From contig CALUUD010000001.1 in assembly GCA_944323885.1 (NCBI GenBank), positions 248,001-312,000 on the forward strand: a stretch of DNA of 64,000 bases, read 5' to 3'. The position numbers were made by a program, and so were the translations under genes. Positions 52,569 through 60,854 of the stretch are shown piece after piece (the stretch's first letter is position 1; each line of letters starts with the position of its first letter). The stretch comes from an uncultured Helicobacteraceae bacterium. GTDB lineage: Bacteria > Campylobacterota > Campylobacteria > Campylobacterales > Helicobacteraceae. The notes under the pieces are model-generated. The model saw nothing but the letters and a program-made list of their open reading frames with translations, did no database searches and was not told the DNA's origin.

Positions 52569-53315
52569 TTATTGTCTCCAACCATATTTCTTGAAAATTT
52601 CTTGAGCTTTTTTACCTGAAAGATAATCAACAAATTGTTTAGTTTCATTGCTTGCATTATTTTTCATAACAATATTAAAAGTCCTATAAACCACCAAATC
52701 CTTTTCAATGCTCACTACATCACCAAAATCTGGGTTACTCTTTGCCCAATCTAACCAAGTAATCCAAACATCTGCTTGATTATCTAAGAATGCTTTTCTT
52801 GCACTACCACTATTTGGTGTATATGCAACAATATTTTGTCTAAATTTGCTAATAAGTTCAATATCTTGGGTTCTACCTATCATATCTTCCCATACACCAG
52901 TTCCTGAAGTATTACTTTTTCCTGCCCCATCTGGCACTACAATTCTGACTTTTTTATTTGCAAGATCTTTTAAACCCTTAATTTTAAGTGGATTACCTTT
53001 TTGTGTAAGTATAATTGCCTCACGAAAATACAAAGGCTTAATTGCTTTAATATCAAAACTATTATTAAAGTCACTAGCTATAGCTAGTGCAGACTGATCT
53101 GATGCACCAAATAAGGCATCTGCATTTTTTTCTGCTTTATCTTGCCAAGTTTTTTGTGGTCCAAAATTAACATTTACATTAATTCCAGTATCCTTTTTAA
53201 ACTCTTTTGCAACATCAATTAAAGCAGTATGTGGCCCACCTGGTCCATATATGTTTACATCAGCAAATAAAAAAGCATTGCTCATTAAAGCTAAAGATAG
53301 TAATAACTTTTTCAT
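52569..53315 (-). CDS. Periplasmic substrate-binding protein, AcfC-like
   Basis: 248 residues with a signal peptide (MKKLLLSLALMSNAFLFA). The mature start DVNIYGPGGPHTALIDVAKE resembles AcfC, the accessory colonisation factor, and the fold is that of sulfate/molybdate-type type 2 binding proteins (GPQKTWQDKA, FGASDQSALA, PDGAGKSNTSGTGVWEDMIG). It may bind an oxyanion such as sulfate. No ABC permease or ATPase gene is adjacent. Well spaced from both neighbours, with its own promoter region. Confidence 0.8.
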   Translation of the reverse strand: MKKLLLSLALMSNAFLFADVNIYGPGGPHTALIDVAKEFKKDTGINVNVNFGPQKTWQDKAEKNADALFGASDQSALAIASDFNNSFDIKAIKPLYFREAIILTQKGNPLKIKGLKDLANKKVRIVVPDGAGKSNTSGTGVWEDMIGRTQDIELISKFRQNIVAYTPNSGSARKAFLDNQADVWITWLDWAKSNPDFGDVVSIEKDLVVYRTFNIVMKNNASNETKQFVDYLSGKKAQEIFKKYGWRQ

Positions 53316-53464: not shown

Positions 53465-55015
53465 TTATCTAAACTCCTTTTTAATAAAAGACACTTCTTC
53501 CTTGCATATTTGCTCCCAATCTTCACATTGATATTGATTAAGAGATTCCTTATCTTCTCTTAATAAAACTTCATAAGCAAACAACCAATATTCATCATTT
53601 AAAATTTTAGAAGTTTGTATAATAAAATTATTTGCTATTGTTTTATATTCTTGTATATTGTTACCATTCTTTTTATCATAAAGGTAGCATAATAACATTA
53701 GAATGCAATCTTCTTTTTTTCCTGCTTCTTCTAATAAATTAATTTCTGCTTCTAGTTTAAAATCATATTTTAGTGCAAAATAAATGGCATAAGACATTGC
53801 TTCGTAGTTTCTTTTTTCTTTACCTAGATTAAAAATATCTAAAGAGATTTTTTGTATATATGATTTTGCAACAAGGTCTTTTTCATCAAATACTTTATCT
53901 AATAAAAAAATCAAATATGGATATAGCAAAACTAAATGATGAATTGTGTTAATAAAATATTTTTTAGCACTTATGGTCATTTTCTTTTTAAGTAAAATTT
54001 TAATTGCATAGTGTAAAATAGCAGCATTATCTTTATTTTCTTTCATTAACTCTAAAGCCATATCTAAAAATGGTGCTATTCCTGAATGCTTTATTTCTCC
54101 ATTATGGGAATCTAATTGAAAAAGCTTTAATTTTCTTATCCACTTTTCTTCAAATGAATTAGGTAGTTCTATGATTTCTGTTTTTTTATGATTTAAATAT
54201 AATCTATATTTTTTAAGCTCCATAGATAAATCTAAAAGAAAATTTTGGGCTTCTTCGTGAGATTTAACATAGCAAGCATAATCATCTATGTTTCTAATAT
54301 ATTTATATTTTTTGCTAAGTTCATAATCAACTGCAACTAAAATAATCTCTGAGATTAAGTTCGAGCTATGAGAGCCTATTAATATTCCATGAGTTTCTCC
54401 ATAATTAAGCCCTTGTGTAGCTCTATCTATCTTATTATAATACACAGATTTATTGTTTTTATTGTTTTTAGCTTCTTCCTTTCCAGCTAATGCCCAAGGT
54501 ATAGAATGTGTATAGATGCTAGGGAAACAATTTGAAATATCTGCTTTTACTTTATATCTTTTGCCAATAACAATTTCTTGCTTAGGAGAATCATCAAGCT
54601 TGTAGTTATTATAGTTCATCTCAAAAATTGCTTTGCATTTTAACTTTCTAATATGAATGCGACTAATTTTATAATTATCATTTTTGGTTTTTTCAAAAAA
54701 ATATTCCTTTAATTCACCCCAGCTTTCTTTTAAGGCTTTACATTGTTTGTAGTATGCAAATGGATTTGGTATTGATAGGATTCTAGGAATATTAATATGT
54801 CTCATATTTTCATATTTAATATACTTGTATTCTTTTTGTTTAAAACATGGCTTATTTGATTTGCAAAATTCAAAGAAAGTTTCTGAAGTAAGAAAATTTG
54901 GTATCCTTTCGGCAAACATTCCATATCCCAATAACCCTTCATAGAGCATATCTTCTGATAATTTATTAAGACATTCATGATATTTTTTTAAATTTTCCAT
55001 CTCTTTAATTTGCAC
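53465..55015 (-). CDS. Stand-alone reverse transcriptase, Abi/UG (defence) type
   Basis: 516 residues. The start is a GTG at 55013-55015, with GGAGG 6 bases upstream. RT motifs: A, VKADISNCFPSIYTHSIPWA (D159); B, LNYGETHGILIGSHSSNLIS (204-222); C, RNIDDYACY (D244, D245); D, LYLNHKKTEI (273-282). The SIYTHSI box and a C-terminal helical repeat region (300-516) mark the Abi/UG (DRT) class, not retrons or group II introns. No maturase, HNH or msr/msd part is present. Members of this class block phages by making DNA. The residue before IDD is Asn, not the usual Tyr/Phe. Which UG/DRT group it belongs to cannot be decided here. Confidence 0.88.
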   Translation of the reverse strand: MQIKEMENLKKYHECLNKLSEDMLYEGLLGYGMFAERIPNFLTSETFFEFCKSNKPCFKQKEYKYIKYENMRHINIPRILSIPNPFAYYKQCKALKESWGELKEYFFEKTKNDNYKISRIHIRKLKCKAIFEMNYNNYKLDDSPKQEIVIGKRYKVKADISNCFPSIYTHSIPWALAGKEEAKNNKNNKSVYYNKIDRATQGLNYGETHGILIGSHSSNLISEIILVAVDYELSKKYKYIRNIDDYACYVKSHEEAQNFLLDLSMELKKYRLYLNHKKTEIIELPNSFEEKWIRKLKLFQLDSHNGEIKHSGIAPFLDMALELMKENKDNAAILHYAIKILLKKKMTISAKKYFINTIHHLVLLYPYLIFLLDKVFDEKDLVAKSYIQKISLDIFNLGKEKRNYEAMSYAIYFALKYDFKLEAEINLLEEAGKKEDCILMLLCYLYDKKNGNNIQEYKTIANNFIIQTSKILNDEYWLFAYEVLLREDKESLNQYQCEDWEQICKEEVSFIKKEFR

Positions 55016-55194: not shown

Positions 55195-56016
55195 ATGAAA
55201 AAAATAATTTTAGGAATCTTGGTGATATTTGGTTTAAGCAATAACATGTATGCAGAAAATATACATCCAATAACAAGGGAGATGGGATCTGGAACTCGAG
55301 GAGCTTTTGTAGAAATTTTTGGTATACAAAAAGAAATTAAAGGAAAAAAAGTAGATGCTATATCACAAAAAGCGGAAGTAACAAATTCAACTGGTGTTAT
55401 GATAACAAGCATTGCTAATTCTAAAAATGCAATTGGATATATATCTTTAGGTTCTTTGAAAGATAATGTAAAGGCACTAAAAATAGATGGCGTATATCCG
55501 AATTTAGACACTATTATAAATAAAAGTTATAAAATTTCTCGTCCTTTTAATCTTGTTACAAAACAAGAAAATGATCTTATTAAAGATTTCTTAGATTATG
55601 CAATTAATGCAAAGGATATAATAGAAAAAGCAGGATATGTAGCTACAAAACAAATTCCTTTTATCTCTAAAAAACCAAATGGCAAACTTATTATTGCTGG
55701 ATCAAGCTCTATATATCCACTGATAGAAAAAATTACTGAAAGTTATAGAATAATAAATCCAAATGCAAATATTGAAGTATTACAATCAGATTCTACTACA
55801 GGTATTAATGCTGTGCTTGATGGGACAGCAGATATTGGTATGGTATCTCGGGAACTAAAACCTACAGAAATAAAAAGAGGCATAAAAACTCATATCATAG
55901 CAATTGATGGTTTAGCAGTTATTGTAAATAAAGCAAATAAACTAGACTCTATAACTAAAGAGGATATTAAAAAAATATTTTTAGGCGAAATAAAACAATG
56001 GGGTGACCTTAAATAG
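55195..56016 (+). CDS. pstS: Phosphate-binding protein PstS, circularly permuted
   Basis: 273 residues with a signal peptide (MKKIILGILVIFGLSNNMYA). Both halves of PstS are present but in reversed order. Residues 24-150 are the normal C-terminal half (HPITREMGSGTRGAF, IGYISLGSLKDNVKALKIDG, SRPFNLV). Residues 163-273 are the normal N-terminal half (KLIIAGSSSIYPLIEKITES, DGTADIGMVSREL, IAIDGLAVIVNKAN, IFLGEIKQWGDLK). Phosphate ligands GSSS and GSGTR are intact, so it can still bind phosphate. It leads pstSCAB-phoBR. Confidence 0.88.
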   Translation: MKKIILGILVIFGLSNNMYAENIHPITREMGSGTRGAFVEIFGIQKEIKGKKVDAISQKAEVTNSTGVMITSIANSKNAIGYISLGSLKDNVKALKIDGVYPNLDTIINKSYKISRPFNLVTKQENDLIKDFLDYAINAKDIIEKAGYVATKQIPFISKKPNGKLIIAGSSSIYPLIEKITESYRIINPNANIEVLQSDSTTGINAVLDGTADIGMVSRELKPTEIKRGIKTHIIAIDGLAVIVNKANKLDSITKEDIKKIFLGEIKQWGDLK

Positions 56017-56054: not shown

Positions 56055-56906
56055 ATGTCAGAAAATTTAAAAGAAAGAATTTTTTATATCTTATTTGGGT
56101 TATGTGCATTTGTATCAATTATTGCTGTTATATCCATATGTATATTTTTATTTGCTAATGCTATACCAACGATACGCACTATTGGAATAGTTGATTATTT
56201 ATTTGAAACATACTGGAATTATGAAATTGAGGCTTTTGGAATATTAACTATGATAGTAGGCAGCCTATATGTAACGGCACTTGCTATCATTATTGGTGTT
56301 CCAATTGGTGTATTAAGTGCTATATATCTTTCACAATTCTGTCCAAAATATTTAAAAAAAATTTTAATGCCTGCAGTTGAGCTTTTAGGTGCGATACCGA
56401 GTGTTGTATATGGTTTTTTTGGACTTGTAATCATTGTCCCTATTTTGCATACAATATTTGATGATATATCTGGAAAAAGCCTTCTAGCAGCATCAATTAT
56501 ACTAGCTATTATGATACTACCGACTATCATACTTATGTCAAAAAGTGCGATAGATTCTATTCCTAGAAGTTATTTTGAAGGTGCTCTAGCACTTGGGGCA
56601 AGTAAAGAAAAAAGTGTGTTCTTTGCTATGTTACCTGCGGCAAAATCTGGGATACTAGCATCTATAATACTTGGGATTGGGCGTGCAATAGGCGAAGCTA
56701 TGGCTGTGGTTATGGTTGCGGGCAATCAGACACAAATACCAACTTCAATACTAGATGGTGTAAGAACACTAACAACAGGTATTGTTCTTGAGATGGGGTA
56801 TTCTACTGGGTTACATAGAGATGTATTAATTGCTAATGGTGTAGTTTTATTTGTATTTATACTACTTATAAATATTAGCCTTAATATGCTCAAAAAAGAT
56901 AGATAG
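56055..56906 (+). CDS. pstC: Phosphate ABC transporter permease PstC
   Basis: 283 residues, six membrane segments. The permease EAA loop is YFEGALALGASKEKSVFFAM near residue 174, and GAIPSVVYGFFG (about residue 115) is typical of PstC/PstA. It starts 38 bp after pstS and precedes pstA by 8 bp. Confidence 0.95.
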   Translation: MSENLKERIFYILFGLCAFVSIIAVISICIFLFANAIPTIRTIGIVDYLFETYWNYEIEAFGILTMIVGSLYVTALAIIIGVPIGVLSAIYLSQFCPKYLKKILMPAVELLGAIPSVVYGFFGLVIIVPILHTIFDDISGKSLLAASIILAIMILPTIILMSKSAIDSIPRSYFEGALALGASKEKSVFFAMLPAAKSGILASIILGIGRAIGEAMAVVMVAGNQTQIPTSILDGVRTLTTGIVLEMGYSTGLHRDVLIANGVVLFVFILLINISLNMLKKDR

Positions 56907-56914
56907 AGGAACAA

Positions 56915-57733
56915 ATGCAAAGAGATCTTACTTCAGATATTATTTTTTATTCTTTAAGAATAGCAATATTTTTAACAATAAGTATTTTTATAATCATCAT
57001 TGGATTTATAATTATAAAAGGTGTTGCACATATAAACCCTAAATTATTTGAATGGGAATATAATAGTAATAATATTTCTATGATGCCTGCAATGATTAAT
57101 ACTATCAATATGATAGTTGCCTCACTTGCCATTGCTATGCCTTTTGGAATATTTGGAGCAATATTTCTCAATGAATACAATAAAAAAGATACTAAGATTA
57201 TAAAACTAATTAATATTGCAGCAGAGACACTTGTTGGGATTCCAAGTATAGTATATGGATTATTTGGATTTTTAGTATTTGTAACATATTTTGGGTTTAA
57301 ATTTAGCTTTTTATCTGGAGTGTTCACGCTTTCTATAATGATACTACCACTTATTTTACGAAGTTCACAAGAAGCTCTAAAATCCGTACCAAATAGTTTT
57401 AGAGAAGCGAGCTTTGCACTTGGTGCCACCAAACTTCGCACAATATTTTGTATTGTAATCCCTGCTGCAATACCTGGGATTTTAGCTGGTGTAATTTTAA
57501 GTATTGGCAAGATAGTAGGTGAAAGCGCTGCTCTACTGTATACAGCAGGTACAGTGGCAAAAATAGCAGCACCACTAGATTCTGCAAGAACATTAAGTGT
57601 GCATATGTATATGATTTCAGGTGAAGGGCTGTATATCAATGAAGCATATAGCACAGCAATGATATTAATTATCATGGTTCTTTTTGTAAATCTTATATCA
57701 AATTACATAGCAAAAAAACTTACAAAATCTTAA
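56915..57733 (+). CDS. pstA: Phosphate ABC transporter permease PstA
   Basis: 272 residues, six membrane segments. PstA pattern GIPSIVYGLFGFLVF near residue 110 and EAA loop SFREASFALGATKLRTIFCI near residue 160. The C-terminus has GESAALLYTAG, as in PstA. It pairs with PstC as the channel. Confidence 0.95.
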   Translation: MQRDLTSDIIFYSLRIAIFLTISIFIIIIGFIIIKGVAHINPKLFEWEYNSNNISMMPAMINTINMIVASLAIAMPFGIFGAIFLNEYNKKDTKIIKLINIAAETLVGIPSIVYGLFGFLVFVTYFGFKFSFLSGVFTLSIMILPLILRSSQEALKSVPNSFREASFALGATKLRTIFCIVIPAAIPGILAGVILSIGKIVGESAALLYTAGTVAKIAAPLDSARTLSVHMYMISGEGLYINEAYSTAMILIIMVLFVNLISNYIAKKLTKS

Positions 57734-57745
57734 GGGGTTATACTA

Positions 57746-58504
57746 ATGGATAAGAAAACTTGTTTTAACATCAAAGATATGAATCTATACTATGATGATT
57801 TTCATGCACTGAAAAATATTAATATGCAAATTCAAAAAGGCGATGTTACAGCATTTATAGGACCTAGCGGATGTGGAAAATCAACTTTTATTAAAAGTCT
57901 CAATAGAATGAATGATCTTATTGAGGGATGCAAAATTACTGGTAAAATCCTATTTTATGGTGATAATATCTATAAAAAATATAATGTAACCAATTTAAGA
58001 AAAAAAGTAGGCATGGTGTTTCAAAAACCAAATCCTTTTCCTATGAGTATTTATGACAATATAACATTTGGACCAAAAACACATGGTATAAAAGATAAGT
58101 ATAAATTAGATTCTATAGTTGAAGAAAGTTTAAAAGATGTCGGATTGTGGAAAGATTTAAAAGACAGATTAAAGCAAAATGCACTAAGCCTTAGTGGTGG
58201 GCAACAACAACGATTATGCATTGCAAGAACTATTGCGGTTAATCCTGAAGTTATACTTATGGATGAACCAACAAGTGCTCTTGATCCAATTTCAACCCTT
58301 AAAATCGAAGAACTAATAAATAAACTTAAAAAAGAATATACAATCATTATTGTTACACATAATATGCAACAAGCACATAGAATATCTAATAAAACAGCTT
58401 TTTTCTTACTTGGAGAAATGATAGAATTTGATGATACAAAAAATATTTTTACCAAACCAAAAGATAAAAAAACAAAGGATTACATTGAAGGAAGATTTGG
58501 ATAA
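57746..58504 (+). CDS. pstB: Phosphate ABC transporter ATP-binding protein PstB
   Basis: 252 residues. Walker [10 protein letters not shown] near residue 37; the PstB-type [20 protein letters not shown] follows; Q-loop [16 protein letters not shown]; signature [15 protein letters not shown]; Walker [14 protein letters not shown]; switch His in [10 protein letters not shown]. Length and motifs are standard. phoU, often next, is missing; the RR gene starts 33 bp on. Confidence 0.97.
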
Positions 58505-58537: not shown

Positions 58538-59209
58538 TTGATTTATATATTAGAAGATGATAGTTCTATATTGGAGCTTATCATATATGCATTAAAAACA
58601 CAAAATATCAAATCCAAAGGTTTTATAAATTATGATGATTTCTTACAGGCAATAAAGGATAAAAAACCAGAGATAATCATACTAGATGTTATGTTGCCAG
58701 GTATTAGTGGATTTGAGATTTTAGATACAATCAAGACTAATCCAAAAACTAAAAATATACCAACTATACTCCTAACTGCATTAAATAGTGAATATGAAAA
58801 AGTAAAAGGTCTTGACCTAGGTGCTGATGATTATATAACAAAACCATTTGGGGTAATGGAGCTACTTGCTAGGATTAGGGTGATTTTGAGAAGATTGGAT
58901 AGTAAAGATAATGCAATATTCTTTGATGGTTTGGAATTTTCATATAAAAAACATAGTGTATCTATAGATAATCAAAAAATAGAACTAACATTAAAAGAAT
59001 TTGAATTATTAGGATTCTTAATTAAAAATCCAGATCATACATTTAGTAGGGATAAATTACTAGAAGAAATATGGGGATATATGTATACATGTGAAAGCAG
59101 AACACTTGATATGCACATAAAGACATTGCGTCAAAAGCTTGGAATCTGGGGAGAACGCATAAAGACTATTCGTGGAGTTGGTTATAAACTAGAAAAAACA
59201 AATGTATAA
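58538..59209 (+). CDS. phoB: OmpR/PhoB-family response regulator
   Basis: 223 residues from a TTG start (ACAAGG upstream). Receiver domain: acidic pair EDD at residues 5-7, phospho-Asp in IIILDVMLPG near residue 51, Thr/Lys in LLTALNS and DYITKPFGV. C-terminal winged-helix: LTLKEFELLGFLIKNPDHTF and SRTLDMHIKTLRQKLG, ending TIRGVGYKL. Position behind pstSCAB implies control of phosphate genes; the candidate target is the repeat region before pstS. The symbol is by analogy. Confidence 0.88.
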   Translation: MIYILEDDSSILELIIYALKTQNIKSKGFINYDDFLQAIKDKKPEIIILDVMLPGISGFEILDTIKTNPKTKNIPTILLTALNSEYEKVKGLDLGADDYITKPFGVMELLARIRVILRRLDSKDNAIFFDGLEFSYKKHSVSIDNQKIELTLKEFELLGFLIKNPDHTFSRDKLLEEIWGYMYTCESRTLDMHIKTLRQKLGIWGERIKTIRGVGYKLEKTNV

Positions 59210-60854
59210 AAAAATATTTAGCTCTATTTTTCTCACAACAATTTTTACGCTAGTTATTGCAAATATAATAATATTATTTACAATAGAATCTATACTTACA
59301 AAACAAGCATTTTTAGAACTAAAAAAAGAAGCAAATGTATTAGAAAATAAAATATTAGACTTAATGAATAATAGAATACCTAATACATATAGAATAAGTA
59401 TCATAAAAGAAAATGGCGAAGTAATATATGATAACACAAATGAAAATCTAAAAAACCATAGTGATAGAAGAGAAATAATAAATGCAATAATAAATAATGA
59501 AGCAACAAGTATAAGATATTCAGATACTATGAATATCAAGATGCTCTATTTTGCAAAAATAATTGACTTTAATAATGAAAAAATTATATTAAGAATATCA
59601 CAACCAAAAAAAGATATACAAAATATTATTTTCAATCTCTTGCCTTATTTTGGATTTGAATTTATATTGTGCACTATAATATGTTTTTTTATTGCCAAAA
59701 TACTCACAACTTCAATAATAAAGCCACTACATAAGATTAATTTAAACAATATTGCACAACAAATGCCATATACAGAATTAAAGCCATTTGCTCAATCATT
59801 AAAAAATGAGCATAAACTAATAAAAAATCAACTTAAAGGATTAAAGCAAAAACAAAATCAAATGCTACTCTTAACACAAAATATGAGTGATGGGCTTATA
59901 ATGTTAAATAGGCAAGGAAAGATTCTATTATCAAATAAAAAAGCAAATCAATACTTTGATAATCTTGAAAAAATTACAAACATAAATGAAATAAATGATT
60001 ATTTATTTTTACAACAAGTATTATTACGACTAAATACACTAAAAAAAGACAATAAACAACAAGTATTAAGAATAAAAATTAACAATAAAGAATGCGAAGC
60101 TGTATTTTGTCCAATATATTCAAAAGTAAAATTTAGAGGGATAATTATCATATTGCGCGATATTGATGCTATCTTAGTAATGAGAAATATGCGAAAGGAA
60201 TTTAGTGCAAATGTTACACATGAATTGAAAACACCATTAACTTCAATTCTTGCAAGTAGCGAAATGATAAACAATAATCTAGTAAAACAAGAAGACATCA
60301 ATATATTTGTAGAAAAGATAGAAAAAGAAGCAAAACGATTATTAGAAATGATTGATGAAATATTGAAACTTACATTCTTAGATGAGAATAAAGAAAATAT
60401 TATAATGAGTCAAATAAATTTAAAAAAAATTATAAATAGTGTGCTTGATAGACTTCAAGTAATTGCAAAAAATAAAAAAATAGATATCACATCAAACCTT
60501 AATGATATATCCATACTGGGCAATGAACAATTAATAGAGAATCTAATATATAACCTGTGTGATAATGCAATTAAATACAATAAAGAAAAAGGGGGAATAA
60601 AAATTAAGTTATACAAACAAAAGGATAAAACTATATTTAGCATAAAAGATAATGGTATAGGAATACCAAAAGAAGAACACAATAGAATCTTTGAAAGATT
60701 TTATTGTGTTGATAAAAGTAGAAGTAAAAAAATAGGTGGAACAGGGCTTGGGCTTTCTATAGTTAAATCTGTTGCAAAATGCCATAATGCAAAGATAGAA
60801 TTAAATAGTAAAGAAAATAAAGGTAGCGAATTTAGAATTATTTTTGAAACATAA
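59202..60854 (+). CDS. phoR: PhoR-like sensor histidine kinase
   Basis: 550 residues. Membrane segment at residues 5-27, a periplasmic sensor domain (28-145), a second segment near residue 150-170, a PAS-like part (about 225-320), then the H-box NVTHELKTPLTSILASSEM near residue 340 with the phospho-His, N box NLIYNLCDNAIKYN and G boxes DNGIGIPKEE, GGTGLGLSIVK. It overlaps phoB by 8 bp. It is the cognate kinase and presumably senses phosphate through Pst; PhoU is not encoded nearby. Confidence 0.9.
   Translation: MYKKIFSSIFLTTIFTLVIANIIILFTIESILTKQAFLELKKEANVLENKILDLMNNRIPNTYRISIIKENGEVIYDNTNENLKNHSDRREIINAIINNEATSIRYSDTMNIKMLYFAKIIDFNNEKIILRISQPKKDIQNIIFNLLPYFGFEFILCTIICFFIAKILTTSIIKPLHKINLNNIAQQMPYTELKPFAQSLKNEHKLIKNQLKGLKQKQNQMLLLTQNMSDGLIMLNRQGKILLSNKKANQYFDNLEKITNINEINDYLFLQQVLLRLNTLKKDNKQQVLRIKINNKECEAVFCPIYSKVKFRGIIIILRDIDAILVMRNMRKEFSANVTHELKTPLTSILASSEMINNNLVKQEDINIFVEKIEKEAKRLLEMIDEILKLTFLDENKENIIMSQINLKKIINSVLDRLQVIAKNKKIDITSNLNDISILGNEQLIENLIYNLCDNAIKYNKEKGGIKIKLYKQKDKTIFSIKDNGIGIPKEEHNRIFERFYCVDKSRSKKIGGTGLGLSIVKSVAKCHNAKIELNSKENKGSEFRIIFET

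Follow-up and report, generated by a model that had tools for sequence, protein, structure and literature searches.

The pstS gene at positions 55195..56016 of the window, the whole 64,000-nucleotide stretch of DNA analyzed here from an uncultured Helicobacteraceae bacterium, encodes a complete and genuine circular permutation of the phosphate-binding protein PstS, in which the C-terminal half of the ordinary protein comes first and the N-terminal half second. The observed order of the halves, the predicted fold, the residue conservation, the operon, the distribution among genomes and the clustering in the tree are best explained by a working, secreted, circularly permuted PstS that had one or very few origins, probably in Bacillota, and whose operon spread by horizontal transfer (probability of about 0.93). 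The permuted form is an old, widespread and little-noticed variant, of which a crystal structure has already been deposited. The gene, its parts and the genes that follow it are listed below.

55195..56016, + strand: permuted pstS, 273 aa; an ORF with swapped TIGR02136/PF12849 stretches, collinear with PDB chain 4H1X_A (E 2.2e-53)
55195..55254, + strand: putative N-terminal signal peptide, about residues 1-20 (MKKIILGILVIFGLSNNMYA, followed by E), without a lipobox Cys; from reading of the sequence and a helix at 2-15 in the model
55258..55644, + strand: ordinary PstS C-terminal half, now first (residues 22-150), with the R28-x3-S32-G33-T34 phosphate loop
55645..55680, + strand: linker between the old C- and N-termini (residues 151-162); rotation optimum at 151-158, coil between helix 140-145 and strand 163-170 in the model
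55681..56013, + strand: ordinary PstS N-terminal half, now second (residues 163-273)
56055..56906, + strand: pstC permease (TIGR02138, 281 bits, cutoff 196)
56915..57733, + strand: pstA permease (TIGR00974, 257 bits, cutoff 193)
57746..58504, + strand: pstB ATPase (TIGR00972, 415 bits, cutoff 343)
58538..59209, + strand: PhoB-like response regulator (TIGR02154 PhoB is the best NCBIfam match, 214 bits, below its cutoff of 296; Pfam Response_reg and Trans_reg_C)
59202..60854, + strand: PhoR-like sensor histidine kinase, its gene overlapping that of the regulator (reading of the translation shows the motifs HELKTPLTS and DNGIGIPKEE)

Order of the two halves in the sequence

Pfam PBP_like_2 (PF12849; E 1.9e-35) and NCBIfam TIGR02136 (189.0 bits, E 1.1e-55) each match the window PstS in two stretches, and the start of both profiles is matched by residues 163-271. 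After rotation of the protein by script, a single continuous match to TIGR02136 was obtained (protein 5-244 to profile 40-294 of 295; 200.9 bits). All 253 rotations of the mature protein were also scored against an HMM of 17 ordinary-order PstS sequences, and the scores rose in a smooth peak at starts 151-158, where one alignment of 263.6 bits covered profile positions 42-292; the native order gave two pieces of 134.9 and 123.1 bits (profile 161-294 and 42-155), and the best of 200 shuffled controls reached 8.2 bits. The half placed first aligns to residues 122-243 of 4q8r and 143-277 of 1twy (HMM positions 161-294), and the half placed second to residues 4-113 of 4q8r and 20-135 of 1twy (HMM positions 42-155). 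Both domain halves therefore show significant similarity to PstS, which becomes continuous once the chain is rotated. The protein narrowly misses the curated TIGR02136 cutoff of 206.6 bits in the native (189.0) and rotated (200.9) order, rotation restoring 12 bits, and this cutoff serves for naming and does not define PstS biologically; the domain, fold and operon tests support its membership in PstS despite the missed cutoff.

These data, together with the AlphaFold model described below, bear out the original prediction that the halves of PstS stand in swapped order in a true circular permutation. The motifs on which it relied occur in the ORF translation where it had placed them (GSGTR at residues 31-35 and IAGSSSIYPL at residues 167-176), and the rotation scan and the model agree with a cut between the W-D-L region and PITREMGSGTR and with a short linker at about 151-162. 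Just about 5 profile positions are absent at the junction in the rotation scan, so the statement that nothing is duplicated or missing holds, and the signal peptide, as judged from the sequence, appears to have been kept.

The chain begins at the ordinary loop between '..ITNWKEVGG' and 'PIVVISREEGSGTR' and runs to the old C-terminus, from which a linker of about 12 residues leads to the old N-terminus, the chain ending at the old loop.

Predicted structure

An AlphaFold2 model built from a 50-sequence alignment had a mean pLDDT of 93.7. Its elements, from strand 24 to helix 263, follow the order seen in an ordinary Clostridial PstS modeled as a control, but cyclically shifted. The best PDB match to the protein was 4H1X_A, which is PstS2 of Streptococcus pneumoniae (SP_2084), released in 2012: residues 19-273 are collinear with 7-265 (E 2.2e-53, 40% identity), and since the two are collinear end to end, 4H1X has the same permuted order. 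The same entry was the top hit by far in structure searches with the model (Foldseek E 5e-33; VIA Z 34.3, 2.0 A over 252 residues). Ordinary structures superposed on one half only, 1twy on the first (20-151 to 141-276) and 9l8j on the second (159-273 to 2-117), while in sequence alignments 4q8r, 4gd5 and 1twy match both halves in swapped positions. In line with the original prediction, the model fits the PstS halves in swapped positions; Foldseek and VIA returned ordinary PstS as half matches, and alignment under permutation was carried out by sequence rotation. Moreover, the protein has the arrangement of the 4H1X-type group, with the C-terminal half first, the cut between NWKE(V/L) and the GSGTR strand and the old termini joined, and the other permuted ORFs that were tabulated have the same order.

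Conserved residues and operon

In the phosphate loop, R28, S32, G33 and R35 are invariant among 50 homologues and T34 is conserved in at least 90% of them, and S170, S200 and S218, located in other loops, are also invariant. The phosphate-contacting residues conserved in PstS, namely the R-x3-S-G-T loop and the Ser/Thr of the first loops, are therefore present. According to the alignment, the corresponding E. coli residues would be R135, S139, G140, T141 and S38. Because all ligand loops are kept, the permuted protein should close on phosphate as ordinary PstS does.

The permuted pstS is the first gene of an intact pstSCAB-phoBR operon, with pstC, pstA and pstB encoded alongside, and a pstC-like gene lies directly 3' on the same strand for 76 of the 84 permuted ORFs with enough flanking sequence (a few loci being counted twice). 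No second relative of the protein was found in its own genome at E <= 0.001. Most likely, the protein acts as a Venus-flytrap phosphate receptor of the ordinary kind and feeds PstCAB, its family and operon pointing to phosphate as the ligand. It would serve as the secreted phosphate receptor of the pstSCAB importer, docking on PstC/PstA, under the adjoining PhoBR-type two-component pair, and we infer that it binds and delivers phosphate for transport.

Distribution among genomes

Full-length collinear homologues were detected in 45 of the 121 genomes of the window's family (41-70% identity, the window itself excluded), and ordinary-order PstS in fewer of them (e.g., G074, G078, and G118), so that the permuted form is the usual PstS among those Helicobacteraceae-like genomes that have any. 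It also occurs elsewhere in the same phylum (G130, G152, G349, G125, and G198) and in about 60 of the 341 Clostridia sampled. Plasmid records of Monoglobus and Treponema saccharophilum carry it as well, and a match of the same type lies on an uncultured Helicobacter contig (L032). There was no match in IMG/VR, and in a collection of phages permuted matches were restricted to short unannotated fecal "Bacteriophage sp." records. The search for homologues suggested with the original prediction thus recovered the same order across the genomes of many relatives, and its implication that this protein is singular has to be given up, since dozens of relatives, many Clostridia and 4H1X (2012) share the permuted order.

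Within the same genus, the pst operon of G002 (L087, 4490-7546) is decayed, with pstS present from about residue 93 only and pstC, pstA, pstB and the regulator truncated or frameshifted. A pstS match was absent from three other genomes of the genus, one of them only 56% complete.

Origin and spread of the permutation

For phylogenetic analysis, every sequence was first put into ordinary order; the sample comprised Campylobacterota, Clostridia and a few others, and the truncated pstS of G002 was excluded. The 59 main permuted sequences, including 4H1X and the window PstS, formed one clade (99/95). Two very divergent permuted PstS-like sequences on long branches, L101 (G459) and L102 (G596), fell outside this clade, and their cut point is identical to that of the other permuted PstS; they could reflect a second origin or long-branch effects. 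The main permuted group of Campylobacterota formed one clade (100/97) nested among Bacillota, and a permuted Bacillota clade without this group was rejected (p-AU 0.012). A single Campylobacterota clade including family f5 was also rejected (p-AU 0.008), pointing to two or more transfers. These p-values are indicative, as the groups for the AU tests were chosen after the first tree had been seen, and together with the limited taxon sample this makes the direction of transfer less certain than the permutation.

The window PstC shows the same affinity, being mostly 55-62% identical to the PstC adjoining Clostridial permuted PstS, versus 31-33% to the PstC in ordinary-order operons of its own family (L073-L075). 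Taken together, the nesting and the affinity of PstC indicate Bacillota as the probable source of the operon, whose pstS would already have been permuted at the time. A single permutation event, or very few, would have taken place, probably in Bacillota; the permuted pst operon would then have spread and been passed horizontally to the ancestor of the Helicobacter-type permuted group. The permutation did not arise in the genome of the window; the tree puts its origin deeper, in Bacillota.

Duplication followed by trimming is the textbook route to circular permutation, and, as the original prediction proposed, it may have been the route to the permuted PstS. An N-C-N-C intermediate was not found among the loci read, including those of two Clostridia (L083 of G602 and L084 of G492) that each carry two permuted pstS genes in tandem.

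Defense genes near pstS

A gene for a DRT4 anti-phage reverse transcriptase (53465-55015, - strand; PADLOC Drt4, 688 bits; NCBIfam Drt4, 435 bits, just under the cutoff of 450) lies divergently just upstream of pstS, and beyond it there is a gene for an unrelated extracellular solute-binding protein (52569-53315, - strand; SBP_bac_11, E 1.1e-43). In another genome (G085; L067, 2355-8060), the region upstream of the permuted pstS and the 5' portion of the gene (about 176 codons) occur once more, in a copy that does not represent an N-C-N-C intermediate. The direct repeats (300 nt at 99% and 63 nt at 92%) flank three genes whose translations read as two DNA adenine methylase-like proteins and a restriction endonuclease-like protein, an arrangement that looks as if a restriction-modification unit had inserted there and duplicated a long stretch of its target. 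Considered alongside the DRT4 gene of the window, this arrangement suggests that defense genes may insert at the site upstream of pstS.

Alternative explanations

An ordinary pstS that was misassembled, or two partial genes fused into a chimera, could in principle produce such an ORF, and the original prediction itself named an assembly error as grounds for rejecting it; nothing in favor of such an error emerged. The identical order in one ORF in independent homologues, that is, in 45 of 121 family genomes and about 60 of 341 Clostridia, and in the crystallized pneumococcal protein excludes an assembly artifact, and we give this explanation practically no weight. Rather unlikely is a separate permutation in Campylobacterota or in several lineages, through recurrent duplication and trimming at the same loop. 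It would suit the position of L101 and L102 off the main permuted clade and the three changes of order that the best tree requires; against it stand the single clade of the 59 main sequences, a single clade of all permuted sequences that was not rejected (p-AU 0.363), the same cut point everywhere, L101 and L102 included, and the nesting of the permuted Campylobacterota among Bacillota. One or very few origins, followed by horizontal transfer, is therefore the reading we retain.

A shift of the receptor to another oxyanion or to a signaling role, so that it would no longer be a phosphate receptor, is very improbable. The TIGR02136 score under the naming cutoff leans in that direction, and as Pst1 of the pneumococcus has the primary role at low phosphate (PMC4913102), permuted receptors may be specialized; however, the window protein heads an intact pstCAB-phoBR operon, has invariant phosphate-loop residues and is accompanied by no further relative in its genome at the threshold given above, which argues for a phosphate receptor. 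A more speculative idea is that the permutation is functional and not neutral: the moved N-terminus (the tether in lipoprotein members) would alter anchoring, closure or PstC/PstA docking, and this would have helped the permuted form to become fixed among Clostridia and relatives of Helicobacter and to displace ordinary PstS. We regard this as unlikely.

Significance and comparison with known systems

The permuted PstS is apparently an undescribed variant. In the open-access literature we found no paper that describes PstS as circularly permuted, which agrees with the original prediction, in which no report for PstS was known. Open-access papers also yielded no mention of 4H1X, and thus the permutation appears undescribed even though it is visible in the structure. 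Genetic work on the pneumococcal Pst1 and Pst2 systems treats them as "evolutionarily distinct" phosphate transporters and does not mention the permutation (PMC4913102). Annotation deserves caution, given that plasmid-borne permuted relatives are named just "substrate-binding domain-containing protein" and the window PstS misses the PstS naming cutoff. Besides, permuted and ordinary PstS together make up a large natural set, and the two forms sometimes share a family or a cell, as in the pneumococcus, where the ordinary PstS1 and the permuted PstS2 have both been crystallized. The effect of chain order on folding, closure and transporter docking is therefore directly testable, and the same set allows the study of how natural permutations arise and spread.

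Ordinary PstS proteins (1twy of V. cholerae, 4q8r and 4gd5 of C. perfringens, and 4exl, PstS1 of S. pneumoniae) have the same two halves and phosphate loop as the window PstS; however, their halves are in the opposite order and their termini lie where the window PstS has its linker. The closest counterpart, 4H1X, was deposited as a phosphate ABC transporter phosphate-binding protein and, unlike the window PstS, comes from a Gram-positive source. The nearest precedent is TpMglB-2 (Tp0684), the glucose-binding protein of Treponema pallidum. This ABC-importer binding protein is naturally circularly permuted and has relatives among treponemes and among Gram-positive bacteria of the gut; it retains ligand binding and closure, and its authors proposed the class "Type Ic/Cluster Bc" (PMC4990184). 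Both are permuted binding proteins of ABC importers, but TpMglB-2 has the Type I/Cluster B sugar-binding fold and another cut point, whereas the window PstS is a phosphate receptor with a different fold.
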